Positions 182-33,136 of a DNA stretch of 64,000 nt are shown piece by piece (positions within the stretch are counted from its first letter, which is position 1; the number at the start of each line of letters is the position of its first letter). The notes beneath the pieces are model-generated. The model worked only from the letters and a program-made list of their open reading frames with translations, did not search any database and was not told the DNA's origin. The position numbers and the translations under genes were made by a program. The DNA is from Helicobacter sp. 11-8110 (GTDB lineage: Bacteria > Campylobacterota > Campylobacteria > Campylobacterales > Helicobacteraceae), in contig NZ_NHYL01000003.1 of NCBI RefSeq assembly GCF_003288905.1, forward strand, positions 1-64,000, read 5' to 3'.

Positions 182-188
182 CCCTCTA

Positions 189-1026: not shown

Positions 1027-1050
1027 GGCAAAAAATTTGGAGAACTTAAA

Positions 1051-2100: not shown

Positions 2101-2251
2101 GGCAGTTTTTTCATATTTCTGCCTGTTGCTTAAATCTACAAGCAGAAATCCCAAGTCTTGTATCTGCAAAACTACAAAGATAAATTTTTCTATCCATTTT
2201 TTGGATTATCTCCTTCAACTTTTTTGCTTTCCAAAATCTACCCAACAATCC

Positions 2252-3718: not shown

Positions 3719-3798
3719 AATTCATTCCATTCTTTTTAAAGTTTATTTAGATAGAATCCTATCCAATTTTTTTATAATTTTTAATTGAAGTTTGATGA

Positions 3799-4857
3799 AT
3801 GTTGTATTATTTTTATGAATTTCTAAACATTAACCTGTTTCAATATATCACATTTCGCGCTGCCATTGCCTTTTTTGTTGCATTTTTGATGACTATTTTT
3901 TTAATGCCCTATTATATTTTATGGGCAAGTAGCAAAAAGGCTAATCAGCCCATCTCACAATTTGCACCCAAAAACCACCAACAAAAAGTCAATATTCCAA
4001 CAATGGGCGGAATCGTTTTTATTTTTTCTACCTTAATTGCAGCCTTGCTTTGTGCTAAACTCAATAATTCTTATGTGATTCTTGGAATCTTAAGTCTTAT
4101 TTTATTTTCTAGCATTGGTATTTATGATGATTTCTCCAAAGTAATGCAAAAGAAAAATGCAGGAATGAGCGCACGGACAAAGTTTGCATTACAAGGATTA
4201 AGCGGACTTTTTATCGCATTGGGGCTTTATTTTTATGGAATGAATAGCCACCTTTATCTCCCTTTTTTAAAAAATCCCATTTGGGATTGGGGGATATTAA
4301 GCCTTTTATTTTGGGTGCTAGTTTTTGTTGCTACTAGCAACGCAGTCAATCTCACTGATGGCTTAGATGGATTAGTGGCAATTCCCTCCATTTATGCGCT
4401 TGTTTCTTTAGGAGTTTTTGTTTATGTTGCAGGTCATTCAGGGCTTAGTGCTTATCTTTTGTATCCTAAGATTCAAGAGAGTGGAGAAGTTGTGATTCTC
4501 TCTGCAGCACTCATTGGTGCTCTTATTGGATTTTTGTGGTATAACTGCCACCCTGCACAAGTTTTTATGGGCGATAGTGGAAGTCTTGCTATCGGTGGAT
4601 TCATTGCTTATATGGCAATTATTTCAAAAAATGAAATTTTACTTTTTGTGATAGGATTTATCTTTGTTGTTGAAGCCCTATCCGTGCTCTTGCAAATTGG
4701 TAGCTACAAAACAAGGGGCAAAAAGCTCTTTTTAATGGCACCACTCCACCACCATTTTGAAGAAAAGGGCTTAAAAGAGAGTAAAATTATCGTGCGGTTT
4801 TGGATTGTAGCTCTAATGAGTAACCTCATCGCACTTTTAACCCTCAAACTTCGCTAA
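3799..4857 (+). CDS. mraY: phospho-N-acetylmuramoyl-pentapeptide transferase MraY
   Basis: MraY transfers phospho-MurNAc-pentapeptide from UDP to undecaprenyl phosphate, making lipid I at the inner membrane. The 352-residue protein has about ten membrane segments. Family hallmarks are all present: GIYDDFSK with the paired aspartates, [10 protein letters not shown]-like, [11 protein letters not shown] and the APLHHHFE histidine motif. Only nine bases separate it from murD, so the two cell-wall genes form an operon. Confidence 0.97.
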
Positions 4858-4866
4858 AGGATATGA

Positions 4867-6081: not shown

Positions 6082-6084
6082 ATT

Positions 6085-6990
6085 TTAATATTTGTTTTGC
6101 AAGCTTTCATTAATAAACTCTTCAAAACGCATTAAAATAGTATTGATAGGATGACTTTTTCGCTTCAAACTATAAAAATGTCTCTCTAAATTAAGATTAA
6201 CAATTTCAATAGAAAATAAAATGCCATTTTTCAGCTCTTGCTCTATAGCTACTTCAGAAAAAACCGCAATAGCTCCTTTATTTACCACCAAATCTTTAAT
6301 AGCCGTTGTCCTATCTAATTCTAAAAAAATTGGAACTTCTTTTTTTAATTCTCCCAAAGCATTTAAAAAGCTATCCCTTAATCCCGAACCATATTCCCTA
6401 AAAATCCACTTTTTATCTAATAATTCATCAATATAACGCGGTTTTGAAGCCAAAATAAAATCATTACTTGCTACAATCAAACGATCTTCACACAAAACTT
6501 CACGAATTAACCCCTCACTTTGTGCATATTCTAGCCCAATTTCACCCTCCACTAATGCCAATTCTACGCTACCATTTTTTAAGAGATTTAAGCATTCTTG
6601 AGTGTTATAAATCTTTAAATTAACCTTGACTTTTGGATATACCTTTGCAAAATCAAATAAGATTCTAGGCAAAAAATACTCCCCTATAGTGTGTGTGGCT
6701 ACAAGATTAATTTCTCCTATCAAAACACCCTCTTCTCCCAAAGCTTCCAAGCTCGAATAATAACTCTGCACTACTTCCACCCACAAACTCCCAAGATATA
6801 AAGCTCTTGTTGTAGGGACAAGCCTTTTCCCCAATCTCTCAAAAAGAGTGATTCCAAGCATTTTTTCTATATTTCTAATAAGCACCGAAACATTTGGCTG
6901 TGTAATTTTAAAATTTTGTGCGGTTAAAGTCGGACTTTTGGTATGCAATAAATCTAAGAAAATCTCCAAATCTCTAATTTTCAATTTCAC
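6085..6990 (-). CDS. LysR-family transcriptional regulator
   Basis: A 301-residue regulator with the standard LysR plan: an N-terminal winged helix-turn-helix at residues 1-65 (FKITQPNVSVLIRNIEKMLG is the recognition region) and a periplasmic-binding-protein-like effector domain after about residue 90. It is transcribed divergently from the YeiH-family transporter 150 bases away, the classical arrangement for a LysR protein that controls its neighbour. The inducer is unknown. Confidence 0.9.
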   Translation of the reverse strand: MKLKIRDLEIFLDLLHTKSPTLTAQNFKITQPNVSVLIRNIEKMLGITLFERLGKRLVPTTRALYLGSLWVEVVQSYYSSLEALGEEGVLIGEINLVATHTIGEYFLPRILFDFAKVYPKVKVNLKIYNTQECLNLLKNGSVELALVEGEIGLEYAQSEGLIREVLCEDRLIVASNDFILASKPRYIDELLDKKWIFREYGSGLRDSFLNALGELKKEVPIFLELDRTTAIKDLVVNKGAIAVFSEVAIEQELKNGILFSIEIVNLNLERHFYSLKRKSHPINTILMRFEEFINESLQNKY

Positions 6991-7064
6991 CCCTTTTTTA
7001 TTTAAAAAATCTTAGAATCCGATATAAAAGCCATTTTATTTTTGTTGTTAAGTATTCCATATTT

Positions 7065-7077
7065 TTAATTAAATTAA
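7065..7077. promoter_or_regulatory. candidate LysR operator (inverted repeat)
   Basis: TTAATT-A-AATTAA is a perfect inverted repeat in the region shared by the divergent LysR and YeiH genes, about 47 bases before the inferred start of transcription of the latter. LysR boxes are short AT-rich dyads of the T-N11-A kind. The surroundings are so AT-rich that chance is a real alternative. Confidence 0.3.
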
Positions 7078-7105
7078 TATATTTTTATTATGATACATTT
7101 GGTGC

Positions 7106-7111
7106 TATAAT
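7106..7111 (+). promoter_or_regulatory. -10 box for the YeiH-family gene
   Basis: A consensus TATAAT preceded by TGC sits 30 bases before the ATG at 7142, giving a short leader that contains the AGGGG ribosome site at 7131-7135. Confidence 0.6.
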
Positions 7112-7141
7112 CCCACAAAAATTCTCAAATAGGGGTTGGAA

Positions 7142-8254
7142 ATGTTAAGAAATAAACATTTATTTCAAATGATTTCTTCAAATTTCAAAGGACTTTTATT
7201 AGTTAGCTTAATTGTTGCCTTTGCCTTTTATCTCTCTGGAATCCAAGCTATTCAAGACACCACCCATTTAGCTGCTACTGCTTTTGCAATTATCATTGGA
7301 GCAGCCCTCTCACCTTGGTTTTTTAGATTCCAACACACACTCCAAGCAGGTGTGCATTTTAGCGCTAAAAAACTTTTGCGACTAGGAATCGTGCTTTATG
7401 GATTTAATATTACTTTTAGTGAGCTATACAGCATCGGTTTTTACGGATTTTTGATTGCTTTTATTGTGATTGTAAGTATTTTTTTAATTGCCTTATTTGC
7501 AGGGACAAAAATCTTTAAGCTTGATAGGGAAACTTCTATGCTTGTGGGTGCTGGAAGCGCTATTTGCGGTGCTGCTGCAGTTTTAGCTCTTGAATCAAGC
7601 CTAAAATCCGATTCTTTTAAAGGCGTTGTTGCCGTTGGTAGCGTGGTAATTTTTGGCTTGATTGCGATGTTTTTATACCCCATTGCCTTTAGCACTGGAA
7701 TCATACCCTTATTAGATAGCGATGGAATGGGGCTTTTTATGGGAGCCACTTTGCATGAAGTTGCCAATGTTGCTGGTGCTGCTGAAATGGCAAAAGAGAT
7801 GACAAATGGAATCTTCACTCAAAGTGCTGCTAATCTTGCAGTCATCATTAAAATGATGCGCGTGATTTTACTCGTGCCTTTTTTATTGATTGTTGCTTAT
7901 TTTATCGCTAGGGATAACAATGCGCAAAGCACCGCCCAAAAAACTAGCAAGAGAATTGACATTCCTTATTTTGCTTTTATGTTTTTAGGGGTTATTGTGC
8001 TTAATACTTTTTTAAGCGCCCATAAAGACACACTTATTTTAAATGTCTTTAGCATTCAATCTATTGTTGAAAGCGGTCGATTCCTTTGCACACTTTGTAT
8101 TGTTTATGCTATGGCTGCTTTAGGGCTTCAAATTGATTTTAAAAAATTTATCAAATTAGGTGGTAAAGCCTTTGGTTTAGCCTTTTTGCTCTTTCTCATC
8201 TTAATCTTTGGGGGATATTTACTAACCCTCTGCTTCCAAGGAATCCTTTGGTGA
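7142..8254 (+). CDS. YeiH/UPF0324 family putative anion exporter
   Basis: A polytopic inner-membrane protein of 370 residues, with roughly ten hydrophobic segments and the family features VGAGSAICGAAAV and GATLHEVANVAGAA. It belongs to the UPF0324/YeiH family, often annotated as putative sulfate exporter; the substrate has not, to my knowledge, been firmly shown. ATG 7142 is preferred over TTG 7136 because AGGGG lies six bases before the ATG. The divergent LysR gene suggests inducible expression. Confidence 0.85.
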   Translation: MLRNKHLFQMISSNFKGLLLVSLIVAFAFYLSGIQAIQDTTHLAATAFAIIIGAALSPWFFRFQHTLQAGVHFSAKKLLRLGIVLYGFNITFSELYSIGFYGFLIAFIVIVSIFLIALFAGTKIFKLDRETSMLVGAGSAICGAAAVLALESSLKSDSFKGVVAVGSVVIFGLIAMFLYPIAFSTGIIPLLDSDGMGLFMGATLHEVANVAGAAEMAKEMTNGIFTQSAANLAVIIKMMRVILLVPFLLIVAYFIARDNNAQSTAQKTSKRIDIPYFAFMFLGVIVLNTFLSAHKDTLILNVFSIQSIVESGRFLCTLCIVYAMAALGLQIDFKKFIKLGGKAFGLAFLLFLILIFGGYLLTLCFQGILW

Positions 8255-8265
8255 TTTTGCCCACT

Positions 8266-8577
8266 TTAGAGGCAATTTGCCACTGCCTCATCTAAATAAT
8301 AGATATTTAAATACCCTGCTTCTACCAAATCAGTTCCAAGTAAAGATGCAGAATGCCCCAAATAGCAATTAATTAGAATCTTTTTATCTTGATTTAAAAC
8401 TTCTTGCAATTCTTCTTTGGTTGTAATATTTCTAGCACCCCTTAAATGCCCTCTTCTAAAATCCTCTGGCATTCGGATATCCACACAAATCCACTCTTCA
8501 TTTTCTAAAATATCTTTTAAATCTTCTTTATAAATCGCCTTTGCAAGACTTTTATAATTTTTTCCGTAATACTGCAT
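8266..8577 (-). CDS. single-domain rhodanese-like protein
   Basis: A 103-residue cytoplasmic protein with one rhodanese domain. Visible are the VDIRMPEDFRRGHLRGARNI segment, typical of the domain's entry, and Cys71 in NCYLGHSAS, the position of the sulfur-carrying or phosphate-binding active loop. Sulfur donor and acceptor are unknown. I start it at ATG 8577, two bases after the rsmD stop and with AAGGA upstream. A longer frame from 8637 would overlap rsmD by 58 bases for no gain in homology. Confidence 0.8.
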   Translation of the reverse strand: MQYYGKNYKSLAKAIYKEDLKDILENEEWICVDIRMPEDFRRGHLRGARNITTKEELQEVLNQDKKILINCYLGHSASLLGTDLVEAGYLNIYYLDEAVANCL

Positions 8578-8579
8578 TC

Positions 8580-9173
8580 TTATCCTTTTACAAAATAACT
8601 TAAAGCACTTTTGCCAAACTTTCTTGTTTTTACACATTCAAAATCACCTAGTTTTTGAGGGATTTTAAGGCTAGAAATATGCTCTAATACCACAATGCCA
8701 AAAACATTAGAATCCAAACTCTTAACCACCTTAAAGCATTTTTCATAAATTCCCCCCATTCCCTCGCGCATATCAAAAGGTGGATCAAAATAGCCAATAC
8801 TAAAATCCTTAATTCCCTTTAGTGTTTCTTTGTAATTTTCAAAAGTATCGCCAAAAATAACTTGACAATCACAATCTTTACAGACCTTTTGAATATTGCT
8901 TTTTAAAACTTCATAAGATTCTCTATTTTGCTCAAAAAATATAGCACTTTTAGCTCCCCTGCTTAACGCTTCAATGCCAACACTTCCACTCCCTGCAAAA
9001 AACTCTACAAAATTAGCTCCTACTACATCATAATTTAATGTATTAAAAAACGACTCTTTTAAGATTGCTTTAGAAGAACGAGTGATTTCCAAAGGAGCCA
9101 TTTGAAGATTCCTGCCTTTAAAAACTCCGCCAATAACCTTTAGAGTTGCTTTTTTAAAATTGTCTGTTTGCAT
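8580..9173 (-). CDS. rsmD: 16S rRNA (guanine966-N2)-methyltransferase RsmD
   Basis: RsmD methylates G966 of 16S rRNA using S-adenosylmethionine. The SAM-binding motif FFAGSGSVGIEALSRGA covers residues 58-74 and the catalytic DPPF motif is at 130-133, fitting an N2-guanine methylase. The N-terminal VIGGVFKGRNL is also typical. Its start overlaps the end of the upstream gene by 20 bases and the rhodanese gene follows two bases after its stop. Confidence 0.92.
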   Translation of the reverse strand: MQTDNFKKATLKVIGGVFKGRNLQMAPLEITRSSKAILKESFFNTLNYDVVGANFVEFFAGSGSVGIEALSRGAKSAIFFEQNRESYEVLKSNIQKVCKDCDCQVIFGDTFENYKETLKGIKDFSIGYFDPPFDMREGMGGIYEKCFKVVKSLDSNVFGIVVLEHISSLKIPQKLGDFECVKTRKFGKSALSYFVKG

Positions 9174-9621
9174 CTTTATCCTTCCAATGCTCTAAAATAA
9201 TGCCCTCAATCTCTCTTGCATATCGCTCCAAAACATCACGAATCTTCTCATGCAAAACATCATCTTTTTTCTCTTGCTTGTAAAACTCTACATCACTTAA
9301 CACTTCATTCCAATTCACACTCTCCACATTGGTTTGTTTAATCTCTTCCTCACTCTCTCCCTTATATTCCTCTTTGATTTTTTTTTCATTCTTAATTGAT
9401 TCATAAAATATCCGCAATCTCTCCAATAAAACCTCCTTGGTAAAAGGCTTATTTAAGTTAGCATTTTCATATTCACCAATCAAAAAAACGGGCTTTTGAG
9501 AATCAATAGGCTGAGTAGCAACTACAAAATCACACGCCTTGCAGCTTGTCAAATAATCTTTTAAATACATTTCCAAAGTTTTACCCAATAAAAGAGAATC
9601 GCTAATAAGAGCTATTTTCAT
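9154..9621 (-). CDS. receiver-like protein with charged C-terminal tail, function unknown
   Basis: A 155-residue protein. Residues 1-75 look like a degenerate response-regulator receiver: a hydrophobic first strand (MKIALISDSLLLG), a second strand, and NKPFTKEVLLERL, where Lys-Pro-Phe is the C-terminal receiver signature. No aspartate obviously fits the phosphorylation site. Residues 75-155 are acidic and helical with no motif I recognise. It overlaps rsmD and is probably co-translated with it. I cannot assign a function. Confidence 0.65.
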   Translation of the reverse strand: MKIALISDSLLLGKTLEMYLKDYLTSCKACDFVVATQPIDSQKPVFLIGEYENANLNKPFTKEVLLERLRIFYESIKNEKKIKEEYKGESEEEIKQTNVESVNWNEVLSDVEFYKQEKKDDVLHEKIRDVLERYAREIEGIILEHWKDKDANRQF

Positions 9622-9807
9622 GCTTTTCCTTAAAATTTGTAAAGAAAAATTTTAAACATTATATTAAAAAAAATACAAAAAAGTAAGGGAAAAAGAATTC
9701 AAATAAAGCAAAAAATCAAAATCACACCACTGCACTTCATAATCAAATTGCAAAAACTCAAATCCACTAAAATCTTTAGCTTTAATAAGCTTTATATATT
9801 TTTTTGC

Positions 9808-9813
9808 TATAAT
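9808..9813 (+). promoter_or_regulatory. -10 box for the aroQ operon
   Basis: A TATAAT preceded by TTGC, with a T-rich stretch upstream, lies 27 bases before aroQ. The leader carries a strong AAGGAG ribosome site. It probably also serves the downstream pepQ-folK-flagellar genes, since no other clear promoter is seen before them. Confidence 0.6.
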
Positions 9814-9840
9814 CCACCTAATTTATTTCAAGGAGTTTTT

Positions 9841-10326
9841 ATGAAAGTGATTGTTATCCAAGGTCCAAATCTTAATATGTTAGGTATTAGAGATCCTAGA
9901 ATCTATGGACCTGCAAAACTTGAAACAATTCACCAAAATATTCAAAACCACGCTGAACAAATTGGCTTAGAAGTGGATTTTTTTCAAAGTAATTTTGAAG
10001 GAGAAATTGTCGATAAAATCCAAGAAGCACTCGGACAATACGATGGCATTGTCATCAATCCAGCTGCTTATTCTCACACTTCTATTGCTATTCGTGATGC
10101 TATTAGCGCGGTTAATCTCCCAACTATTGAAGTGCATATCAGCAATATCCATGCAAGAGAAGATTTTCGCCACAAAAGTATAACCGCAGGAGTTTGCGCA
10201 GGAGTTGTCGCAGGGTTTGGTCCTATGGGCTATCATTTAGCATTGCAGGGGCTTTCACAGATTCTTAATGAGATTCAAGCTATCAAACAAGCTAGAGAAC
10301 AACAAGCTCAAGCCACAAATTCATAG
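9841..10326 (+). CDS. aroQ: type II 3-dehydroquinate dehydratase
   Basis: The enzyme dehydrates 3-dehydroquinate to 3-dehydroshikimate in the shikimate pathway. The 161-residue protein has the N-terminal QGPNLNMLG motif, the catalytic Tyr22 in RIYG, the NPAAYSHTS substrate loop and the [11 protein letters not shown] histidine motif. I start at ATG 9841 with AAGGAG just upstream. A longer in-frame opening from 9748 crosses the promoter and is rejected. Confidence 0.96.
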
Positions 10327-10342
10327 TCTAAGTTTATAAAAT

Positions 10343-11386
10343 ATGGAAAATTTCATTATCAGAGATGAAAATGCCCTTTATTTTGAAACACACTATAGTT
10401 GTGATAATGCCATTTTTTTAGCCATTGGTCAAAAAGGATATTTCATTACCGATGGTCGTTATGAGACAGAGGCAAAAGAGCATATTAAAAGCACTCAATA
10501 TGAGATTGAAATTCTAATTAGCCACGATCTCATACGCACTGCAAAAAATATTTTAAAAAAATATGAAAAGGCTACTTTTATTTTTAATCCACAAGAATTT
10601 TCACTCTATTTTTACGAGAAACTCACCAGTGGTTTAAAAATCAACTTTGTGCCCAAGCCAAATTTCCATCAAGAAAAACGAATCTGTAAAACCAAAGAAG
10701 AAATTGCACTTATTGAGCATTCTCAAAAGCTAAATATTAAAGCCTTTGACAAGTTTGCAGCGTGGATTTCTAAAAATGCTAAAGACAAAAATGAGGCTTT
10801 TTTGCATTTTAAATCCCAAGCCTTTTTAACCAAAAAAGGCAAATATGATTTAAGCTTTAATCCTATTGTTGGAATCAATGCAAATGCCGCAAAGCCACAT
10901 GCTCTGCCCTCTAATGATCAGCTCTTAAAAGGCGATTTGTTGCTTTTTGATGCAGGAATAAAATACCAAAGGTATTGCTCAGATAGGACAAGGACAGGGT
11001 ATTTTGGCAAAAACGGCTTTAACTTCAAAAAAGAGCAACATTTCAAAGATTCAACACTACAAAAAATCTATGATATTGTTTTAAAAGCACAAGAAAATGC
11101 TATCAAACACGCCAAAGCTGGAATGTTAGCTTGTGAAATTGATGCTCTAGCGCGCAATGTTATTGAAAAAGCGGGTTATGGTAAATATTTTGTGCATTCT
11201 ACAGGTCACGGCATAGGCTTAGACATTCACGAACTTCCCATTATTTCAGCACGCTCCAAAACTCGCATTGAAGAGGGAATGGTTTTTTCTATTGAACCTG
11301 GCATTTATATTCCCAATAAATATGGCGTTAGAATCGAAGATTTAGTGGTGATAGAAAGCAATGGAGCAAGAATTCTTGGAGAATAA
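10343..11386 (+). CDS. M24 family aminopeptidase (Xaa-Pro aminopeptidase/prolidase-like)
   Basis: A cytoplasmic dinuclear metallopeptidase of the pita-bread fold that removes residues next to proline. Residues 1-120 form a creatinase-like N-domain. The C-domain shows the metal ligands in order: Asp in FDAGIKYQRYCSD, the next Asp in the same strand, His in HSTGHGIGLDIHE, Glu in FSIEPGIYIP and Glu in VRIEDLVVI. The same position in H. pylori, between aroQ and folK, holds pepQ. At 347 residues it is short but complete. Confidence 0.88.
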   Translation: MENFIIRDENALYFETHYSCDNAIFLAIGQKGYFITDGRYETEAKEHIKSTQYEIEILISHDLIRTAKNILKKYEKATFIFNPQEFSLYFYEKLTSGLKINFVPKPNFHQEKRICKTKEEIALIEHSQKLNIKAFDKFAAWISKNAKDKNEAFLHFKSQAFLTKKGKYDLSFNPIVGINANAAKPHALPSNDQLLKGDLLLFDAGIKYQRYCSDRTRTGYFGKNGFNFKKEQHFKDSTLQKIYDIVLKAQENAIKHAKAGMLACEIDALARNVIEKAGYGKYFVHSTGHGIGLDIHELPIISARSKTRIEEGMVFSIEPGIYIPNKYGVRIEDLVVIESNGARILGE

Positions 11387-22310: not shown

Positions 22311-22901
22311 ATGAAACATATACTTTTATTAAATGGTGGCAAGAGTTTTGGGCATTCTGCTGGTAGATTAAATGAGACTTTGCATAATGTAGCTAAAGAA
22401 ACTTTATGTAGTTTGGGATTTGACATACGCGAAACACATATAGATAAAGGCTATCAAATAGAAGAAGAATTACAAAAGATTCTAGATTCTGATGTCGTTA
22501 TTTATCAAATGCCTGGTTGGTGGATGGGTGAGCCTTGGATAGTAAAGAAATATATTGATGAGGTTTTTACTATGGGGCACGGTAAGCTCTATACAAGTGA
22601 TGGGCGATCAAGAAATGATGAAAGCAAAAAATATGGCAGTGGTGGTCTATCACAAGACAAAAAATATATGTTTTCTCTTACTTGGAATGCACCATTAGAG
22701 GCATTTGTAGAAAAAGATCAATTTTTTGAGGGTGTTGGCGTAGATGGCGTGTATTTGCACCTGCATAAAGCTCATCAGTTTTTAGGAATGCAGCCATTAC
22801 CTACCTTTATATGCAATGATGTTATCAAAAATCCACAAGTAGAAAAATACATACAAGATTACAAACTTCATCTAAACAATGTGTTTAAAGATATGCAATA
22901 A
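22311..22901 (+). CDS. mdaB: NAD(P)H-dependent quinone reductase MdaB
   Basis: A flavodoxin-fold FAD enzyme that reduces quinones by two electrons, protecting against oxidative stress. Seen are the N-terminal strand HILLLNGGKSFGHSAG with its phosphate loop, YQMPGWWMGEPWIVKKYIDEVF, and the GKLYTSDGRSR and SLTWNAPLEAF segments typical of MdaB. The 196-residue length is as expected. A YgiN-like gene follows ten bases downstream, which echoes the mdaB-ygiN pair of E. coli. Confidence 0.93.
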   Translation: MKHILLLNGGKSFGHSAGRLNETLHNVAKETLCSLGFDIRETHIDKGYQIEEELQKILDSDVVIYQMPGWWMGEPWIVKKYIDEVFTMGHGKLYTSDGRSRNDESKKYGSGGLSQDKKYMFSLTWNAPLEAFVEKDQFFEGVGVDGVYLHLHKAHQFLGMQPLPTFICNDVIKNPQVEKYIQDYKLHLNNVFKDMQ

Positions 22902-23204: not shown

Positions 23205-24129
23205 ATGAAAATACCAAGCAAGATTTGCGGTTTTGCCTTTAGGGGAGATGAATTAGATCCAATAGAAAAACAATTAAGAGATTTACAAGATGATGAGGTG
23301 CTTATCAAAAATACAGCAGCATCTCTCAATCCAGTAGATTGGAAAGTAAAAAAGAACAATAATATTATATCTGGTGTTGATGGTGTAGGAATTGCAATCA
23401 AAACCAAAGATACAAGAATAAAACTTCTATCTAGATACGCTTATCATTGTGATTTAAGATATGATGGTAGTTTTGCTGATTATACCATAGTAAAAGCAAG
23501 GGCTCTCATACCTGTCAATGATTTTATAAATGACAATTTAGCTGCTAGTATGCCTTGTCCTGGTTTGAATGCATATCAAGTAATCCAAAAAAATACCCAA
23601 CTTATTTGCTAAAGATGTATTGGTAAATGGTGCTGGTGGTATGCTTGGCAAAGTGCTTGTGTCTTTATTATTGTTACATGGAGCTAGGGTATCTATTGTA
23701 TCCAACAAAATGCATCACAAAGAATTCAATAACAATGGTGTGTATAGATGCTATGACTATACAGAAAAGATTAATAAAAAATTCTATGCAATATTTGACA
23801 CAACCGGCAAAGCAGAAACTTTACTTGATTGTTTAGAATACTACGGACATATAGTGGCTATATTAGGTAGAATAGATAAAAATACTATACCCGCTTTTTC
23901 AATTTATCCAAGCTTACACGAAATAGCATTGGGTGCTATACATAGCTATGGTAGCGATTTTGATTTTTCTATGCTTGTTTCAAATGCTATGAATCTATAC
24001 AGATTATCACTTGAGCAAAAAATATTATTACCAAAGATTAAAAATATAGACTTTGCTGATATACCTAAAGCCCTTAAGGAAATTGAAAATGGAATCAAAG
24101 GCATAAAATTTGTAGCTCATATTGTATGA
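23205..24129 (+). pseudogene. quinone oxidoreductase-like zinc-type dehydrogenase, frameshifted
   Basis: Two open frames together make one medium-chain dehydrogenase/reductase of about 305 residues. The first (23205-23612) is the GroES-like part, with NPVDWKVKK and the ADYTIVKA strand. The second (from about 23600 to 24129) has the dinucleotide-binding VNGAGGMLGKVLVSL and a C-terminal KALKEIENGIKGIKFV. The break is at the A7 run 23586-23592: removing one A reads VIQKIPNLFAKDVLVNGAGG without a gap. The other residues look well kept, so the lesion is recent, a switchable tract, or a sequencing error. It probably belonged to the mdaB operon. Confidence 0.75.
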
Positions 24130-24205
24130 AATCATATAAGAAATATGACTATGTTTTTGATTTGTAATAAAGCAACCTTATCTAAATTAAAGAATACAAT
24201 ATTTA

Positions 24206-25702
24206 CTACTTATGATTAATTATGCCATTTAGATCTTGCAATATCGCTTCTGCTTGTTGTTGCGTGTTTTTTAGAGATTCTAAAATCTCTCCCACTTCAC
24301 GCAAGGATTTTTCCTCTTTTGTATTTGGATTTTTGGCACTTAGGTCATAATTCCTTGCTTTTAGCTCCTCCAAACTCACAAGATAAGAATGCGGTGTGAT
24401 TTTTCGTTGTTTGTAGCACTCCAAAAATTCTTTAAAATGCGCATATTTCAAAGGCTTATTTTTGGTGAGTTTATAAGGCAGGATAAGCTCATAATAATAC
24501 ACATTGCTATCTTGCTCATCTACAATGCCCCTTAATCCTTTGGAGAAAAATAGCACATTGGTTTTTACTGCACTATATGGGAGAAACACGCCACTAGGTA
24601 GGCTTAGCACACATTCTAGGTTATAGTTTTCTATCAAATCTTGCTTGACTTTCACAAAGGCATTTGAATTTTGAAACAACACCCCTTCAGGCACGATAAT
24701 CGCACATCTACCATTGGTTTTGAGTGATTTTAGGATATGTTGCAAAAATAAAAGCTCTGTGGCGTTGGAAGGCACGATAAAATTGCCCTGAATCTGCTCT
24801 TTTTCTTTGCCGCCAAAAGGAGGATTTGCTAAGATTACTTCATATCTTTCACTTTCTATTATGTCTGTTATTCTCTTACTTAGCGTGTTTGTTTTGATGA
24901 TATTTGGGGATTTTATCCCGTGAAGTATCATATTCATAACCCCCATAGCATAGCTAAGTGGCGTTTTTTCTTTGCCAAAGAGTGCGTCTTTTTGCAAAAA
25001 CTCTAGCTCCTCTACGCTAAGATTTGCTTTTTGTCCTTTTGCCCTATCTTCATACAAAATATGTAAAAAACTCTCCACCAAAAATCCGCAACTCCCACAC
25101 GCAGGATCATAGATTCTCTCTTTTGGCTTAGGGTTGATAACTTCTACCATTACTTTAACCAACGCCCTTGGCGTATAAAACTCCCCACTATTACCGCCAT
25201 CGCTTCCCATATCTTTGAGTAGTTTCTCATACACATCACCTAGTGCAAACACATCACTTTCTTTGCTGAAGCTAAGCTCATCGATGAGGTTTATCACTTC
25301 TCTTAGCGTGTGTCCATTGGCGATTCTGTTGTCGATAAATTCAAAGATTCCACCGATTTTATACGCGATACTTTTAAAGTCCTCATTGTTTTTGAAACTT
25401 TTGAGATAAGGGAAAAGCTCATTATTGACAAACTCTAGCAAATCACTTCCACTTAGTGCATTTTTCACATCAAGTTTGCCATCTTTTTTGGGTGCTGCCC
25501 AGCTCTGCCACGCATACTTAGAATCTAAAATGCTCACATAAGGCACATCATTCAAAAACGCTTCATCTTTTAATTCTCTTTCATAATCATCTAAAAACTT
25601 CAAAAACAATATCCAGCTAATCTGCTCACTATAATGCATCGCACCACTTATGCCATCATCACGCCTTAGTATGTCTGTGATTCTATCGATTGTATTTTGC
25701 AT
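24206..25702 (-). CDS. hsdM: type I restriction-modification methyltransferase subunit HsdM
   Basis: HsdM is the N6-adenine methylase subunit of a type I system and works as HsdM2-HsdS. It has an N-terminal HsdM_N helical domain, the SAM motif DPACGSCG at residues 199-206 and the catalytic NPPFGG at 293-298. At 498 residues it is complete. It begins directly after the fic stop with no intervening base, so it depends on the fic promoter or on read-through from hsdS. It is convergent with the broken dehydrogenase gene. Confidence 0.96.
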   Translation of the reverse strand: MQNTIDRITDILRRDDGISGAMHYSEQISWILFLKFLDDYERELKDEAFLNDVPYVSILDSKYAWQSWAAPKKDGKLDVKNALSGSDLLEFVNNELFPYLKSFKNNEDFKSIAYKIGGIFEFIDNRIANGHTLREVINLIDELSFSKESDVFALGDVYEKLLKDMGSDGGNSGEFYTPRALVKVMVEVINPKPKERIYDPACGSCGFLVESFLHILYEDRAKGQKANLSVEELEFLQKDALFGKEKTPLSYAMGVMNMILHGIKSPNIIKTNTLSKRITDIIESERYEVILANPPFGGKEKEQIQGNFIVPSNATELLFLQHILKSLKTNGRCAIIVPEGVLFQNSNAFVKVKQDLIENYNLECVLSLPSGVFLPYSAVKTNVLFFSKGLRGIVDEQDSNVYYYELILPYKLTKNKPLKYAHFKEFLECYKQRKITPHSYLVSLEELKARNYDLSAKNPNTKEEKSLREVGEILESLKNTQQQAEAILQDLNGIINHK

Positions 25703-26773
25703 TTAAAACATTCCTTTTCTAAAAAGTCTCAAAAGTTCTCTATTTATATAATAATGATTTCTACCTATCTTAACACATTCTAGCACCCCTAAATTTTCAC
25801 AAATTTTAAGATATTTTGAGGCACTTTGCCTAGAAATATCTAATTTTTTTATCAAAAAATCTATCTTTGTATAAGGATGAGAAAACAAAAGTTCTACAAA
25901 ATCTTTGCTATAAAAATTTGTTTTGTTTTGCAAAATTTCACTTACATTATTCATCATTTTTTCTATTGTGGTAATAGTTTCAATCGTTTTTGTAGCGGTT
26001 TGTTCTACGCCTTTTAGTATATATTCTATCCATTCCAAAATCGCACCCTTATCACGCACTTTTTGCAAAAGACTATAATATTCTACTTTATTTTTTACAA
26101 TATAAGCACTCAAATATAAGATAGGCAAATCAAGCAAGCCTTTATAAACCAAATAAAGTATATTTATAATCCTGCCTGTTCTGCCATTGCCATCATAAAA
26201 TGGGTGAATGCTTTCAAATTGATAATGAATAATTGCCATTTTTACCAAAAAATCAAGCTCATCTAAAGCATCATCATTAATGTATCGTTCTAGATTCTCC
26301 ATAAGCCTTAATATATCATTATGATTTTGTGGGGGTATGTGTTTGATTTCTCCTGTAATAGGGTTTTTAAGCATTGTGCCACTTTGTTTTCTAAACCCTG
26401 CATTGTTTCTCTCTAGTCTTTTTTGAATCTCCAAAATATGAGCATTACGCAACAACCCCTCTTTTTTCAAAAGCTCATAACCCTTTTTTAAAGCATTTTC
26501 ATAATCTTTGACTTCTTTGGTTGCTTGTGTAAGTCTGCTTTCATCAATTTGGGACAAAAAAAGTTCATCGTGAGTTGTGATAATATTTTCTATCTCACTT
26601 GAATCTTTTGCTTCTTGCAAGATTAAGGCATTAATCAATATATCTGGATTTGGCATACTTTTGCTAAGTCCATTTAGTTCGGCTAATTTCCTTGAAGCAC
26701 TAATGATGAGATTATAAATACTTGCGTTAAGCTCTAGATTCAAGGGTAGTTTTGGCGGTATGTATTCTTTCAT
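25703..26773 (-). CDS. fic: Fic family protein with C-terminal winged helix
   Basis: Fic proteins usually transfer AMP from ATP to target hydroxyl groups. The core HPFYDGNGRTGR (190-201) is intact, with the catalytic His190. Upstream is SSEIEN (58-63), the (S/T)xxxE(G/N) inhibitory motif, placed N-terminal to the core as in class II Fic proteins, so activity is probably self-restrained through Glu62. Residues about 290-350 form a winged helix-turn-helix (FLIKKLDISRQSASKYLKIC). The target is unknown. It is wedged between hsdS and hsdM and preceded by a repeat-rich promoter it may itself bind. Confidence 0.92.
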   Translation of the reverse strand: MKEYIPPKLPLNLELNASIYNLIISASRKLAELNGLSKSMPNPDILINALILQEAKDSSEIENIITTHDELFLSQIDESRLTQATKEVKDYENALKKGYELLKKEGLLRNAHILEIQKRLERNNAGFRKQSGTMLKNPITGEIKHIPPQNHNDILRLMENLERYINDDALDELDFLVKMAIIHYQFESIHPFYDGNGRTGRIINILYLVYKGLLDLPILYLSAYIVKNKVEYYSLLQKVRDKGAILEWIEYILKGVEQTATKTIETITTIEKMMNNVSEILQNKTNFYSKDFVELLFSHPYTKIDFLIKKLDISRQSASKYLKICENLGVLECVKIGRNHYYINRELLRLFRKGMF

Positions 26774-26802
26774 AAAATTTCCATATATTAAAATTTCTAA
26801 AA

Positions 26803-26893
26803 TTTTTTAACATTATAAGAGAATATGTTAAAAAAATCCAAAATTTTTAACATATCTTGCTGTTGTGTTAAAGTTTGGCAAATTTTTTAACAT
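26803..26893. promoter_or_regulatory. fic-hsdM promoter with repeated operator half-sites
   Basis: On the minus strand a TATAAT at 26817-26812 overlaps the half-site ATGTTAAAAAA (26813-26803). Facing it is TTTTTTAACAT (minus strand, 26835-26825), giving an 11-bp perfect inverted repeat with an 11-base spacer. A second dyad, AACAT-N11-GTGTT, lies at 26849-26869 with the same spacer, its centre about 40 bases from the first. A third ATGTTAAAAAA is at 26893-26883, touching the hsdS stop. This is the pattern of a multi-site operator; the winged helix of Fic is the obvious candidate ligand. Confidence 0.6.
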
Positions 26894-28162
26894 TTATAAC
26901 TTTCCGCTAAAAGCTTGAGTAAGCAGGGATTGCTTAAGCTCCTCGTAGTCTTGTAGCTGTGCGTTATAAAGCTCTTTTAGCTTTTGTATCTTATCAAAGA
27001 CAGAATCTAAGTGCATAGCGATTTGCTCTTGCTCTTTTATGTCTTTTGGGAGGGGGATTTCAAGTTTTGAAAATTCAGTTTTATTGATGATAGGCAAAGT
27101 AGTTTGTGAGGCATTTTTTTTAAGAATGGATTGAAAATATTTGCTATGACACACAAAAAATAAATACTTTGATAAGACATTAGGGCTTGGAATAATGGCA
27201 TTAATTTGTTGATTACAACTTCCAATAATTCCACTTAAGCCAATTTTTCCAATAGAAGCCCCAATACACACAACAAGAAGTGTATTTTTGGGAAGCTTTC
27301 TTGCACTTTCAAAACCTAATTTTGAAAGATTATCACTCGCCTTAATAGTATTACCACTCCCTAAATCACTAGGTTTAAATAATGGATAGTCATTGCCATA
27401 AAACTTTGGATTATTTTTGCTAGGGGTGCTACCTGTAATAATGTCTCCAATCTCCCCCAAGGTTTTCCATTCCCAATGTTGCGGGAGGGGATAGGGAGAT
27501 TGTGCATCGTGTGTGCTAGGATTCTGTGTAGATTCTGTAGAATCTATAGAATCTCCCAAAGGATTAAAAGCTCTATCAAGCACACTTTGGGCTAACTCAT
27601 CGAGATTAGCAAGATTTGCCTTGAGCAACTCCACGCTTGTATCAATCTTTTCAAACGCCAAATCCAAAATCCCCACTATCCTCCCTTGCTCCTTGAGCGG
27701 CGGAAGTGGAATCTCAATTTGCTTAAGCTTTTGCTTATTAAGCGTTTTGCCCTTAACTGCATTATCTACATATTTATCTAGGTTTGTAAATTTTAAAGCG
27801 TAATCTAAAAAATATTTATTAACATTCTCATCTTTGATAAAAATTGCCGCAATAGCTTCATTTGTATATAAATCACAATCGGCGAAAGCAGTTTTACCTA
27901 ATGTTAATTTAAAACTCATCAACAAAGTCCCTTTTGGAACTTTTTTCATATTTGTCTTTACAATCGCTTCATCTGAAATTTTTTCATTTGAGGAAGATAT
28001 AAACTTATCCTTGAGGTCTCTAATGCTTAGCCAAATATTTTCACCTTGAAAAAAGTCAAGATTGTTTCTATTAGGCGTTTTACCTATTTGAATCTCGGCA
28101 ATATTTTCTAAGGTTTTCCATTCCCACCCCTGCGGTAAATGTGTCATTGTGTTATTTTGCAT
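26894..28162 (-). CDS. hsdS: type I restriction-modification specificity subunit HsdS
   Basis: HsdS sets the DNA target. The 422-residue protein has two target-recognition domains, each opening with nearly the same phrase (GWEWKTLENIAEIQIG near residue 11, HWEWKTLGEIGDIITG near 232). Each is followed by a helical conserved region (LPPLKEQGRIVGILD and PLPKDIKEQEQIAMHL). The two domains differ, so the site should be bipartite and asymmetric. Its ATG overlaps the stop of the DUF3037 gene. Confidence 0.95.
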   Translation of the reverse strand: MQNNTMTHLPQGWEWKTLENIAEIQIGKTPNRNNLDFFQGENIWLSIRDLKDKFISSSNEKISDEAIVKTNMKKVPKGTLLMSFKLTLGKTAFADCDLYTNEAIAAIFIKDENVNKYFLDYALKFTNLDKYVDNAVKGKTLNKQKLKQIEIPLPPLKEQGRIVGILDLAFEKIDTSVELLKANLANLDELAQSVLDRAFNPLGDSIDSTESTQNPSTHDAQSPYPLPQHWEWKTLGEIGDIITGSTPSKNNPKFYGNDYPLFKPSDLGSGNTIKASDNLSKLGFESARKLPKNTLLVVCIGASIGKIGLSGIIGSCNQQINAIIPSPNVLSKYLFFVCHSKYFQSILKKNASQTTLPIINKTEFSKLEIPLPKDIKEQEQIAMHLDSVFDKIQKLKELYNAQLQDYEELKQSLLTQAFSGKL

Positions 28163-28878
28163 TATGCTGATTGTATAATATTTGTTTCAAAATGCTCTTC
28201 TATATTGTCATCTGTAATATATGATACATAATCAATATGATTTGGCTTTAAAAAATCTTCAACTTTATTTTTAATATCTTTTTGTGAATTTTTAATAATG
28301 TCTAAAAAATACATTTTCATTGTTGTATATTTCTTATCGTTAAGACTAAAATAGATTGTTTCCATAATATCATTTTTATCCCCAATACTACCAAATCTGT
28401 TAAAAAACTGCTTGTCTTTATATAAAATTTTAAATGAATATTGATTATCACTAGACATTTGAAAGAATTTATTATATTTTTTTTCATAAATTTCTCTAGT
28501 TTTCTCGTTAATTTCTCTAAATCTGTCTTTTTTGTCTTGTTCTTTAAACTTATATCCAATGTAATCCCTATAAAGATTCTTTGTTACTTCATCTATACTG
28601 CTACTACTTGCGACGACATCAATTTCACTAAAGCGGAGGTATTCTCCATACCAAGAGTTAATATCTGTTTCTTTTTTTAAGCTCTCTAAAAAGAACATAA
28701 ATATTTTTTTGTCTAATGAAAGGAATTTAAATAAATGTTTAATATGTTCTTCTTGGCTATCTATGTAGAGCTGCCTATTCTCATTTTCCCCTACCACCCA
28801 AACACCAACATTAAAAAACTCATCACTACGCAAATAAGGATAGTATCTGACTAATCTATATTTATAAACCTGACGCAT
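28162..28878 (-). CDS. DUF3037 family protein
   Basis: A 238-residue protein whose N-terminus (YKYRLVRYYPYLRSDEFFNVGVWV) matches the DUF3037 pattern I recall: a strand-rich start with a conserved FNVGV. The rest is charged and helical. No enzyme motif is seen. DUF3037 genes are, to my knowledge, often next to HipA-like kinase genes, as here, where the start overlaps the kinase stop by 17 bases. A partner or antidote of the kinase is a reasonable inference, not shown by sequence. Confidence 0.78.
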   Translation of the reverse strand: MRQVYKYRLVRYYPYLRSDEFFNVGVWVVGENENRQLYIDSQEEHIKHLFKFLSLDKKIFMFFLESLKKETDINSWYGEYLRFSEIDVVASSSSIDEVTKNLYRDYIGYKFKEQDKKDRFREINEKTREIYEKKYNKFFQMSSDNQYSFKILYKDKQFFNRFGSIGDKNDIMETIYFSLNDKKYTTMKMYFLDIIKNSQKDIKNKVEDFLKPNHIDYVSYITDDNIEEHFETNIIQSA

Positions 28879-29659
28879 ACAAAATCTCCTTATGTGATTG
28901 TCTTTGAGATATTATTTCACATAGCATTCCTAATTCCTCTGTGTCGATTGGATACCATTCGCTAGGAATTAAACTCATAATATTTTGTATTTCTTGTTTT
29001 TGAACTTTTTTATTCAAAATTGCCGTTGTTTTTCTGTAATCATCAAATATATAATCACTAAAACAACACTTACTATAATACAACTCATTGGGCATATTTA
29101 GTTTAAGTTTATTGGGTGAGTGTAGGTTATCCAATAACTCCATACAATCAAATGCTAAACCAAAGTCAATCAGCCATTTTTTATTTTTGCAATCAACTAA
29201 TATATTTGGATTTTTTTCATCTCTATCTGTATTCATTAATCTAGCATCGTAATTTATAGTATTTTTTATAAACGCTTTATCGTTTTTATTCTTAAATTTA
29301 CTTGTATTTGGAATAAACTCTATCCCAAGATTTAAACCTTTAGAATTATGTATATTGTGATATGCTTGCTGCTCTCTTTCGCTACCATTTTGAAATTTAT
29401 TAACCATAAGCAATGTTTCATCGGTGATATTAAGTAGGCAAATTTTAGGTATATTGACTACCCTTAATAAATCTAAATATAAATAAGAAAAAATTTCTAT
29501 AAAAAGATTCTTAGCACATACGCTAGTGCCATCTAACACTTGCCTTGTTTTTAAGATATATTGTTTATCATTATTAGCCACTATTAATATGGGATATGTT
29601 ACACCATAATCCATAACTTTTATGATTCTATCAATATCCCTAGTCTCTATGTTTTCCAT
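28862..29659 (-). CDS. HipA-like protein kinase
   Basis: A 265-residue kinase-fold protein. It has an ATP-binding lysine in QYILKTRQ, a catalytic loop MNTDRDEKNPNIL (Asp base and Asn metal ligand) and the metal-binding LIDFGLAFD. This order matches the stand-alone HipA-like kinase family rather than full HipA, which has an extra N-terminal subdomain. HipA kinases phosphorylate aminoacyl-tRNA synthetases and cause growth arrest; whether this one does is unknown. ATG 29659 follows TAGGG; a start at 29674 adds five residues. Confidence 0.82.
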   Translation of the reverse strand: MENIETRDIDRIIKVMDYGVTYPILIVANNDKQYILKTRQVLDGTSVCAKNLFIEIFSYLYLDLLRVVNIPKICLLNITDETLLMVNKFQNGSEREQQAYHNIHNSKGLNLGIEFIPNTSKFKNKNDKAFIKNTINYDARLMNTDRDEKNPNILVDCKNKKWLIDFGLAFDCMELLDNLHSPNKLKLNMPNELYYSKCCFSDYIFDDYRKTTAILNKKVQKQEIQNIMSLIPSEWYPIDTEELGMLCEIISQRQSHKEILYASGL

Positions 29660-29715
29660 AAAATCCCTACGCAATCATTTATATTATTATAATATTTTTT
29701 TGATTCTCTTGATTA

Positions 29716-32040
29716 TTAAATCTCATATATCTCCCTTTGCAAATCCTCTATACTCTCTTTTAGTGCGGAGATTCCGCCAAAGTCATTAATGATTTCTTGC
29801 ATAGAGCCAAGTGAGCTAAGCTCTAGCAAAGTGCTAATGTTGTCAAAGGCGTTGATTCCGTGTTTTTCATAATATCCTAGCAAAAACTCTATAAGTCTTA
29901 TAGCTCTTTCTTTATGGAATCTTTGCAAAAAGCCACTTTTTCTCACGCTTATCACTCGCTCACTGCGTGAGACTATCTCACTGCTAAAGCTAATGTGTGC
30001 CAAAATATCATAAATATCGCAATCTTTTCGCTCAAAAATCTCTTGTAGATTCTCTAGCACTTCATCATCAATCCCCTCATTTTGGAGACTTTTTAAGAAT
30101 GCTTGTCTATTTTTTGGCTCACTCCACATCGCCTTTAGTTTCTTTTCGTCATCATAATATGCACCAAGCTTGCCGATGAGAAATTCCAAAAACTCCTTTG
30201 TGCCTAGCGGTTTGCCATCTCCTCCTACATAACGCGTTTGTATATCTAGCACTTGTAGCTTGGTGCTTTTTAGGTGAATCACTACCTTTTGGCTTGGCGT
30301 TTCATCTGTTTTGTTTGATTGTTTGTTGCTTTTGGTGCTTACAGGGAAACTAGTATCAGAATCTGTGTTACTCTCTTCATCTATGGCATTGCTTTCTCCA
30401 TCCCATTTTGGATCATAAAAAAGCTTGGTCGCACCAAAAAAATCAAGTATTGTAAAAAAGTCTTTGCCCTCATACACTCTTGTGCCTCGCCCTATGATTT
30501 GCTTAAACTCAATCATTGATCCGATATTTGCTAAAAGCACGATATTTCGGACATTTTTAGCATCGACACCTGTTGTTAGCATTTTGGAGCTTGTGAGAAT
30601 CACAGGATAGCTTTTATCATTGTCTTGAAATTCTTTAAGATAGTTTAGCCCTATAGTCCCCTCATCGCTTGTAACTCTCACACAATAATCATCTCTTTTA
30701 ACCTTTTTGTGTGTATCAATAGCGATTTTTATAGCACTTGCGTGGGCTTGATTAGCACAAAAGATAATCGTTTTATCCATAGGATTGATAAGCTCTAGAA
30801 TCTTTTTGGCGATAAATTCGTTGTATTTGGGTAGTGTGATCTCACGCTCAAACTTGATTGGCGCATAATGTCCGCTTTGTAGTTCGCCTTGCACAATGTC
30901 ATCGGGGTTGTATGTATAGCCATCGCTTAGAGTGGTGATGATACGCTTGACTTTATAAGGCGTGAGAAAGCCATCTTCTATCCCAGTTTTTAGGCTGTAT
31001 TCATACACAGCGTTACCAAAATATTTGTAAGTATCTACATTATCGCTTCGCTTTGGCGTGGCAGTAAGCCCCAAATGCACTGCACTTTCAAAATAATCTA
31101 GCACAGCCCTCCAGTTCCCCTCTTGATTGGCTCCGCCTCTATGGCATTCATCTATGATAATAAGATCAAAGAAATCTTTTGGGTATTGCAAATACAACTT
31201 GCTTTCTTCTTTGTGCCTGTCTTGTTCGGCGTCTTCTTGAATATTCTCCTCACTGCTTAGGCTTTGATAGATACCAAAAAACACATCAGCACTTGTAGGC
31301 ACTTTGTCTTGATTTTTGCGTATCTCTCCTGCACTAATCTCTTTGCAATCCTCCTCTATGGGATTAAACTCATTTAAAGCTTGATTTCGTAGGGTAATGC
31401 GATCACAAAGAAAGAGAATCTTCGGCTTTCTATTGGCATTATCAAGATTCCATTTGGATTGCAAGAGGCGATAGCAAAGTGCAAAGGCGATAGTTGTCTT
31501 GCCTGTGCCAGTGGCGAGGGTGAGCAAGATTCGCTTTTTGTTATTGATAAGGGCTTGTATCACCCTATCTAGTGCTATTTTTTGATAATAACGCAATGGC
31601 TTTTGTGGGATATGAAGTTCTTTTTGAGTTAGGAGTTTGTGTTGCCATTCCAAAAGGTTGCCAAAAATCCTATCAAAGAGAATCTGTGGGCTTGGAAACT
31701 CATCTATATAGCGACCTTGTGAATCTAGTCTATCGTATTCATAAATGTCTATGCCATTTGTAGCATACACAAAACGCACACCAAGAATCTCGCCATATTC
31801 TATGGCTTGAGATAATCCATCTAGTGAATCTTTGCCAAGCCTTTTTGCTTCGATAATAGCTAGATTGTTGTTTTGGAAGCACAGCAAATAATCAGCAAAT
31901 TTTCTAACACCCCTTTTACCTCCAAGCAGTTTTCTACCATCGGTAAAATAATATTCACGCTTGATAAAATCCTCGCTCCAGCCAGAATCTTTGAGTTTGG
32001 TATCGATAAATTTGATTCTTGTATCCGTTTCCCCTAGCAT
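29716..32040 (-). CDS. hsdR: type I restriction endonuclease subunit HsdR
   Basis: HsdR translocates and cuts unmodified DNA. The nuclease domain has D50 (KFADYLL) and E64-x-K66 (IIEAK). The helicase part has Walker A ATGTGKTT (176-183), DECH (297-300), GLTATPKR and the motif VI IGRGTRVYEGKDFF. At 774 residues, with an EcoEI-like C-terminus, it resembles the IB-type subunits. All catalytic residues are present, so it looks functional. Start ATG 32040 follows GGGGAG. The kinase gene begins about 55 bases after its stop. Confidence 0.95.
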   Translation of the reverse strand: MLGETDTRIKFIDTKLKDSGWSEDFIKREYYFTDGRKLLGGKRGVRKFADYLLCFQNNNLAIIEAKRLGKDSLDGLSQAIEYGEILGVRFVYATNGIDIYEYDRLDSQGRYIDEFPSPQILFDRIFGNLLEWQHKLLTQKELHIPQKPLRYYQKIALDRVIQALINNKKRILLTLATGTGKTTIAFALCYRLLQSKWNLDNANRKPKILFLCDRITLRNQALNEFNPIEEDCKEISAGEIRKNQDKVPTSADVFFGIYQSLSSEENIQEDAEQDRHKEESKLYLQYPKDFFDLIIIDECHRGGANQEGNWRAVLDYFESAVHLGLTATPKRSDNVDTYKYFGNAVYEYSLKTGIEDGFLTPYKVKRIITTLSDGYTYNPDDIVQGELQSGHYAPIKFEREITLPKYNEFIAKKILELINPMDKTIIFCANQAHASAIKIAIDTHKKVKRDDYCVRVTSDEGTIGLNYLKEFQDNDKSYPVILTSSKMLTTGVDAKNVRNIVLLANIGSMIEFKQIIGRGTRVYEGKDFFTILDFFGATKLFYDPKWDGESNAIDEESNTDSDTSFPVSTKSNKQSNKTDETPSQKVVIHLKSTKLQVLDIQTRYVGGDGKPLGTKEFLEFLIGKLGAYYDDEKKLKAMWSEPKNRQAFLKSLQNEGIDDEVLENLQEIFERKDCDIYDILAHISFSSEIVSRSERVISVRKSGFLQRFHKERAIRLIEFLLGYYEKHGINAFDNISTLLELSSLGSMQEIINDFGGISALKESIEDLQREIYEI

Positions 32041-32291: not shown

Positions 32292-33136
32292 TTAAGGCAA
32301 AGTAATTTTAAGCACTTTTCCTTCAACCATTCTTGGAATCCAAAGATTCTCTCCATCGCTCACCATATCTGCTGGTCCTTTCATAGCTGGTAAATCAAGC
32401 TTTTCTATCTTTCCATTTTTATCCAAGCGATAAATCACACCTTGCAAATTTTCTCCCCAATCACTTACTAATAAATCTCCATTTTTAGCCCACACTACAC
32501 CATCTAAAGTACCCAAAGGCTCACTTAAAATGCACTTTGCTTTTTAAATCAATGCTTATGATGCTTCCTTTAGCCTTTCCATTTGGATCATAGCCCACAG
32601 CAATTAGGCGATTATTCTTTAAATCAAGCAAGATTCCATTAGGTCCGCCAAACTTTGAATCCACAACCACAAAAGTTTCATATTGCTTATTTTTAACATT
32701 CACTTGATGAATAATCCCTGTCCCTGTGTCGCTCACAAGCAAATTCTCATCATCTAAAGCCACAATGTCATTTAAAAAGATTGCACCTTTAATGGGTAGA
32801 TTCAACACTTCTTTTTTACTTTTTAAATCAAATCCCTTAAGCGTATCAATATCCACTACATACAAAACACCATTGATTGTATTCATACCCTTTGGTGCAT
32901 TAAGATTGGATAAAAATTTCTTTTCTATAATTTTTCCACTCTTATCAAGCTTTGAAATAAAACCATCATTATCTTTATTAAATGGCTCTAACTTCTCCCC
33001 CACATTCCCCACAAAGACATCTTCACCTACGATAAAAAACACTCTCAGGATAAGAAAACCCATCAATCTCTTGGGAAAAAGCACTTGCAGCCAAAGCCCC
33101 TACCAAAGCAAAACTTACTGCGATTTTTTTAAGCGT
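32292..33136 (-). pseudogene. secreted NHL/SMP-30-type beta-propeller protein, decayed
   Basis: Three pieces make one protein. A signal peptide ([20 protein letters not shown]) sits just after AAGGAG, but the start position (33136) is ACG, not ATG. A T6 run near 33035 (minus strand) shifts the frame between the signal part and [16 protein letters not shown] second shift near 32520 separates SIDLKSK from EPLGTLDGVVW. The propeller-like repeats ([32 protein letters not shown]) resemble the Campylobacter proteins labelled putative ATP/GTP-binding. Three lesions make a true pseudogene likely. Confidence 0.8.

Follow-up and report, generated by a model that had tools for sequence, protein, structure and literature searches.

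What is a HipA-like kinase doing, together with a DUF3037 protein and a Fic enzyme, between the core genes of a type I restriction operon? The question is posed by positions 24,206 to 32,040 of a 64,000-nucleotide stretch of DNA from Helicobacter sp. 11-8110 (contig NZ_NHYL01000003.1; the whole stretch is referred to here as the window), where two potential growth-arrest enzymes are interleaved with the genes for restriction, specificity and methylation. Are these enzymes parts of the restriction machinery, chance passengers, or defences in their own right? The explanation that best accounts for the gene content and its distribution, and which is considered probable, is that an intact type I operon carries two self-contained growth-arrest modules in standard cargo slots, such that restriction and the two modules would constitute stacked, independent defences. 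The locus adds a clear new case of stacked immunity in bacteria, not a new kind of system.

All six genes lie on the minus strand, in the transcription order hsdR, HipA_2 kinase, DUF3037, hsdS, fic and hsdM, as determined from the open reading frames of the window and from profile searches. The identity, order and strand of the genes had been proposed from the sequence alone (the sequence-only reading) and hold in Pfam, PADLOC and NCBIfam searches, as does the claimed absence of a gap between fic and hsdM, where hsdM begins one base past the fic stop. The overlaps of one to 17 bases that had been described are present at two junctions, kinase/DUF3037 (17 bp) and DUF3037/hsdS (1 bp), with the other junctions free of overlap; hsdR is separated from the kinase by 56 bp, counted from the kinase ATG, and hsdS from fic by 120 bp, an interval containing three inverted repeats along with a TATAAT box. 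The presence of two growth-arrest enzymes within a type I locus is likewise supported, and catalytic motifs are found in both the predicted kinase and the predicted Fic protein.

The core is predicted to be an intact type I restriction-modification system of the EcoAI/FtnUII type, with the motor, the nuclease, the methylase and two recognition domains all encoded in intact genes. The restriction subunit HsdR (29716..32040, 774 aa; NF046051, 835 bits against a cut-off of 550; REase_I PDLC03049, 480 bits) retains the PD...EAK and GTGKT/DECH motifs, and the N6-adenine methyltransferase subunit HsdM (24206..25702; PF02384, 229 bits, together with HsdM_N; MTase_I PDLC03021, 570 bits) retains DPACG and NPPF. 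The specificity subunit HsdS (26894..28162; Specificity_I PDLC03090, 303 bits) matches PF01420 in two stretches, corresponding to two target-recognition domains.

The pair of genes between hsdR and hsdS is predicted to be a divergent HipAD (PDC-M66, DS-6). The kinase (28862..29659, minus strand, 265 aa from its ATG, with an alternative TTG start at 29674) is of the HipA_2 family (PF20613, 31.4 bits, cut-off 27; PDC-M66A, E=4.6e-13) and would be the toxin; its catalytic residues K37, D145, N150 and D165 are present, and in an alignment K37, D145 and N150 are conserved across all relatives. Directly downstream is the predicted antitoxin, the DUF3037 protein (28162..28878, minus strand; PF11236, 24.7 bits, cut-off 22.6), which has no direct PADLOC match of its own and is assigned to the PDC-M66B family via a homologue of 50% identity (L002, E=1.4e-8). 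Among the Campylobacterota, homologues of the kinase match PDC-M66A, and the DUF3037 proteins paired with them match PDC-M66B. Although the sequence-only reading could not place a kinase plus DUF3037 in this position, the combination is a published toxin-antitoxin defence. PMC12548924 describes a HipA_2/DUF3037 pair beside retron Sda1 as a stand-alone defence, in which deletion of the kinase abolishes defence and deletion of DUF3037 is toxic, and PMC13092281 describes the same pair, found independently as DS-6 and renamed HipAD, with a kinase residue being required. By analogy with these relatives, the pair in the window would comprise a toxin and its antitoxin and would act in phage defence. 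The idea that kinase and DUF3037 represent a new defence system was rejected, since both families match PDC-M66/HipAD. Two decayed copies elsewhere fit a toxin that is not kept active without its partner, albeit as single cases: in Campylobacter sp. MIT 21-1684 (L064) DUF3037 is frameshifted and the DFG aspartate of the kinase is changed to glycine, and in genome G055 (L096) DUF3037 is intact and the kinase is mostly lost, with only its start left.

The proposed autonomy of the modules draws on the way in which the contents of the operon vary among relatives. Type I loci from the same order were surveyed, giving 17, including the window, with hsdR of at least 63% identity and an R-first layout. 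The interval from hsdR to hsdS (cargo slot 1; 28149..29723, minus strand) is occupied in all 17, as judged by PADLOC or by sequence similarity, and holds Hachiman (HamA/HamB) in six loci, RloC/PDC-S06 in two, Pycsar in two and HipAD in the window, with DRT4, AbiL-like, AAA or PtuA-like ATPases, a peptidase/DUF4411 pair and one unassigned protein as its further contents. The interval from hsdS to hsdM (cargo slot 2; 25704..26818, minus strand) was identified in 15 loci, as in the remaining two no hsdS-hsdM portion of this family could be recognised in the sequence retrieved; it contains Fic, directly before hsdM, in nine, RhuM/PDC-S05 in three and nothing in three. Fic also directly precedes hsdM in several more distant loci with an R-x-M-S order (L009, L016, L019, L020).

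The exchange itself can be traced in two genomes, G317, which is of the same genus and has the locus at the same chromosomal site, and G347, from another genus, where hsdR is 95-98.5% and hsdM 96.4% identical in DNA to the window. In blastn comparisons (slot borders against L041 and L027) homology ends at 29724 and returns at 28148, then ends at 26819 and returns at 25703, and the stretches replaced are exactly the cargo, with Hachiman in place of HipAD and RhuM (PDC-S05, 486 bits) in place of SoFic; over its second half, hsdS shares 97% identity with the G317 gene. The upstream border of slot 1 coincides with a conserved hsdR 3' end, GGGAGATATATG (29716..29737, minus strand; alignment of 17 hsdR ends), whose ATG is used as start codon by the slot-1 genes of several relatives, so that the end of hsdR provides a ready-made junction. 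Cargo is swapped cassette by cassette at gene borders, with hsdR and hsdM as the shared flanks. Further toxin modules occur in slot 2: a MazF/PemK-AbrB toxin-antitoxin pair is found between hsdS and hsdM in G389 (L072, 4389-4978) and again before Fic in L064. As a separate observation, hsdR at the same site in G317 is broken into two frames (L041, approximately 8338-10700), and HamA is in two pieces in both G317 and G347.

How widely does HipAD share this position? A genome scan with profile searches gave 12 chromosomal HipA_2-DUF3037 loci: the window, G389 (L072), G454 (L094), G469 (L095), Campylobacter sp. MIT 21-1684 (L064), Sulfuricurvum (L065), L066, L068, L069, G055 (L096), L070 and G202 (L005/L075), the last being distant and having its kinase cut by a contig end; a solo DUF3037 (L067) was excluded from the count. 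The association with hsd genes is conserved, in that ten of the 12 lie within type I loci, representing at least three type I families, versus none of 25 canonical HipA_C kinases scored with the same detector, although these counts are small, the genomes are not independent and defence genes cluster anyway, so that the contrast is not a formal probability. The module lies between hsdR and hsdS in nine of the ten embedded cases regardless of the direction of the operon, and in L095 (4228-7946) hsdR is missing from beside HipAD and hsdS, its position being occupied by oppositely oriented mcrB/mcrC-like genes. Additional HamA genes were found near hsd genes in six cases out of 15, all six with hsdS directly upstream and with hsdR downstream where the contig extends. 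The complete order R-HipAD-...-S-...-Fic-M recurs in L064 and L094, two loci whose hsdR and hsdM are of a different type I family (their hsdM shares only about 28-30% identity with that of the window), and the combination of HipAD with Fic is thus not unique, but rare. On the kinase tree the restriction-modification label needs three changes and the phage label two, and the three changes suggest that embedding in type I loci probably arose repeatedly. Prophage immunity regions form the other context of HipAD, with four prophage-like loci located beside repressor genes (L097, L098, L099, L101), and Campylobacter phage PV052265 encodes, right after its repressor gene, DUF3037 and a HipA_2 kinase of 42% identity, both annotated as hypothetical proteins (L078, 5229-6717). 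A plasmid search for DUF3037 returned no match, and the plasmid match to the kinase belongs to a free-standing pair of Parabacteroides, with housekeeping genes as its neighbours. The passages on DUF3037 read in open-access papers, supplements excluded, do not describe HipAD as part of type I loci, which is not proof of absence. Within L064, a group of three genes, two of them DNA methyltransferase-like, sits inside hsdR and splits it (5684-8567), and resembles a type II restriction system inserted into a type I gene.

The occupant of slot 2 (fic, 25703..26773, minus strand) is a predicted SoFic-type class II Fic AMP-transferase with a C-terminal winged helix, having Fic_N, Fic and SoFic_C domains (PADLOC SoFic, 390 bits; PF13784, PF02661, PF21248; matches to 9vjc and to SoFic 3eqx/3zcn in the PDB), even if it scores 345 in the NCBIfam equivalog, below the cut-off of 550. 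The active-site motif HPFYDGNGRTGR, corresponding to HPFxxGNGRxxR, is present, as is the inhibitory motif SSEIEN in the form of an N-terminal SxxxEN helix. The E. coli relative of SoFic acts through AMP transfer and abortive infection (PMC12249575). No small antitoxin gene of the AS1 type lies downstream of fic, where hsdM starts right after the stop. The region upstream (26774..26893, minus strand) is a predicted promoter and operator, with three 29-bp inverted repeats at 26893-26865, 26853-26825 and 26813-26785 and a TATAAT box at 26817-26812. The middle repeat has a single copy in the whole genome, against an expectation of 0.00 in shuffles, and the repeats are conserved before fic in Campylobacter relatives and partly so before fic in L064 and before RhuM. 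A consensus promoter scan (42 matches versus 34.5 +/- 6.1 in shuffles) was no better than chance and was not used, and the case for a fic promoter is consequently drawn from the conserved repeats and the TATAAT box. With no gap between fic and hsdM, hsdM is probably transcribed from this promoter as well, and the winged helix of Fic may act as the regulator of the repeats. Beyond the Campylobacterota, three of eight plasmid Fic neighbourhoods examined adjoin restriction or methylase genes (L142, L145, L149), a link that exists but at a frequency for which Fic as a universal partner of hsdM outside the phylum was rejected.

The history of the locus within the species is recorded in genome G099, where a segment of 8,178 bp (23737..31914) is missing across the junction 23736/31915 (L071). 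The first 126 bp of hsdR are retained there, which indicates that the locus was once present and was then deleted. The locus is old in the species and dispensable. A recent insertion unique to this strain was rejected, given that other type I families show the same pairing and that G099 represents a deletion scar rather than an empty site.

With stacked, autonomous modules, restriction would act as the first line of defence and HipAD and SoFic as further independent lines. In slot 1, DUF3037 would hold the HipA_2 kinase in check until, in infected cells, the freed kinase would phosphorylate its target and growth would stop. In slot 2, SoFic would be an AMP-transferase that inhibits itself and is expressed from an operator-controlled promoter of its own, and the modules would travel and exchange as cassettes using the hsdR and hsdM flanks. 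Autonomy is favoured because (i) the cargo swaps with unrelated defences while hsdR and hsdM stay 95-98.5% identical, and (ii) HipAD occurs in prophages without restriction genes and its published relative acts alone. A number of observations weigh on the other side. The nearest hsd relatives of this strain do not have HipAD, which among the 17 R-S-M loci is confined to the window itself; the kinase is a divergent HipA_2, scoring 31 bits where the cut-off is 27, and DUF3037 reaches PDC-M66B solely through its homologue. The predicted structures of both proteins are of low confidence (predicted local distance difference test, pLDDT, 63-68) and fold searches gave no significant match, nor did PDB sequence-profile searches with the two proteins, where the sole DUF3037 match had E=0.14. 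The prophage copy L101 is a mild exception, having intact kinase motifs beside a DUF3037 that is shortened at its C-terminus, with about 60 residues missing; a full-length antitoxin may be unnecessary, or the pair may work differently. A 135-aa gene without a Pfam match follows this shortened DUF3037 (L101, 3179-4107), and may point to a split antitoxin or to an additional partner.

Could the type I complex itself silence the kinase, Fic or both, such that an anti-restriction protein or loss of restriction frees the arrest, as in EcoprrI-PrrC? Growth arrest by the kinase or Fic once restriction fails was one possibility raised by the sequence-only reading. The release of PrrC from a type IC complex by T4 is a precedent (PMC3874165), HipAD recurs at the S/R interval across several type I families, and the stop of DUF3037 overlaps the start of hsdS. 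Such guarding is nevertheless unlikely, since the slots are swapped with unrelated systems without change to hsdR or hsdM, HipAD acts alone in the published relative and is present in prophages devoid of hsd genes, and the predicted antitoxin DUF3037 would suffice as an off-switch. That DUF3037 itself is tied to the type I complex, with anti-restriction proteins or lost HsdS or HsdR activity releasing the kinase, is also rather unlikely; if true, it would represent a HipA-type counterpart of the PrrC guard, kept in no fewer than three type I families.

Toxin-antitoxin pairs have an established role in addiction, and one of them together with a Fic toxin inside a restriction-modification operon would punish loss of the locus by freeing the kinase, so that the inserts would chiefly stabilise the restriction genes as selfish retention modules rather than serve in phage defence. 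This is improbable given that G099 lost the complete locus in one deletion, that most of the systems carried in that slot (Hachiman, Pycsar, DRT4) are non-addictive, and that published relatives defend against phage (PMC12548924, PMC13092281, PMC12249575). Neutral hitch-hiking, in which hsd loci are recombination hot spots that receive any gene and the inserts do not serve defence in this strain, would suit the differing slot contents of close relatives, the loss of the whole locus from same-species G099 and the hypervariability of Campylobacter type I loci (PMC5183652). Set against this, the slot contents are nearly all defence families, canonical HipA is never there (0/25) when HipAD and Hachiman often are, the frames and catalytic motifs are intact, and the exchange is bordered by genes and not a random insertion, all of which make a neutral origin decidedly doubtful.

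HipAD, a recently validated defence, acquires a definite genomic niche, namely type I operons and nearly always the interval between hsdS and hsdR. The near-identical flanks reveal a cassette-wise exchange of unrelated defence systems in the slots of a single restriction locus, and reading what lies between hsdR and hsdS offers a simple route to further cargo systems. It also becomes testable whether stacked modules are merely additive or whether failure of restriction triggers the next layer.

The surroundings of the locus have features of their own. A quinone-reductase-like gene on one side (23205-24129) and an SMP-30-like gene on the other (32292-33084) both appear frameshifted, each being split over two frames. 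An NAD(P)H oxidoreductase-like gene of the MdaB type adjoins the type I locus (22311-22901), and such a gene also neighbours type I genes in L064 (17244-17822) and in L028. Homopolymers of more than 8 bp are absent from the locus, and phase variation is accordingly not claimed.

How, finally, does the locus relate to systems that are already known? The prrC gene is located at the S/R position of the EcoprrI operon and, as here, a growth-arrest enzyme is embedded in a type I operon. PrrC is held silent in the restriction complex by the type IC enzyme itself and released upon T4 infection (PMC3874165), whereas the locus in the window has a separate predicted antitoxin gene. The hsdR-hsdS interval is a known type of insertion site, since in E. 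coli the DarTG2 toxin-antitoxin pair lies between hsdS and hsdR, an interval suggested as a possible recombination hot spot (PMC12255303). This RRDM island shares with the window a toxin-antitoxin pair at the S/R interval and repeated operators, but differs in its DarTG2 toxin, its M-S-R order and its small repressor RptR, no such gene being seen in the window locus, where the operators precede fic. The R-x-S-y-M order with variable middle genes in both intervals is that of the Campylobacter IAB hsd loci with their rlo and mlo genes, an assignment made on layout with no named IAB reference strain compared; type I (IAB) loci of Campylobacter are described as hypervariable in PMC5183652 (citing Miller et al. 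2005). HipAD cargo distinguishes the window within the 17 R-S-M loci, the Campylobacter relatives carrying Hachiman, RloC, Pycsar and others. The Fic protein resembles SoFic in its full-length match, its active-site and inhibitory motifs and its C-terminal winged helix; unlike the E. coli Sofic, which has the 47-aa antitoxin gene AS1 downstream, fic here lies directly before hsdM behind a conserved three-repeat operator. The kinase and DUF3037 share with HipAD/DS-6/PDC-M66 the same two families in the same order, overlapping genes, retained catalytic residues and homologues that match PDC-M66A and PDC-M66B, and differ in being 27-50% identical to the Campylobacterota relatives compared, in having no DUF1829 domain that could be found, and in being embedded in a type I operon.

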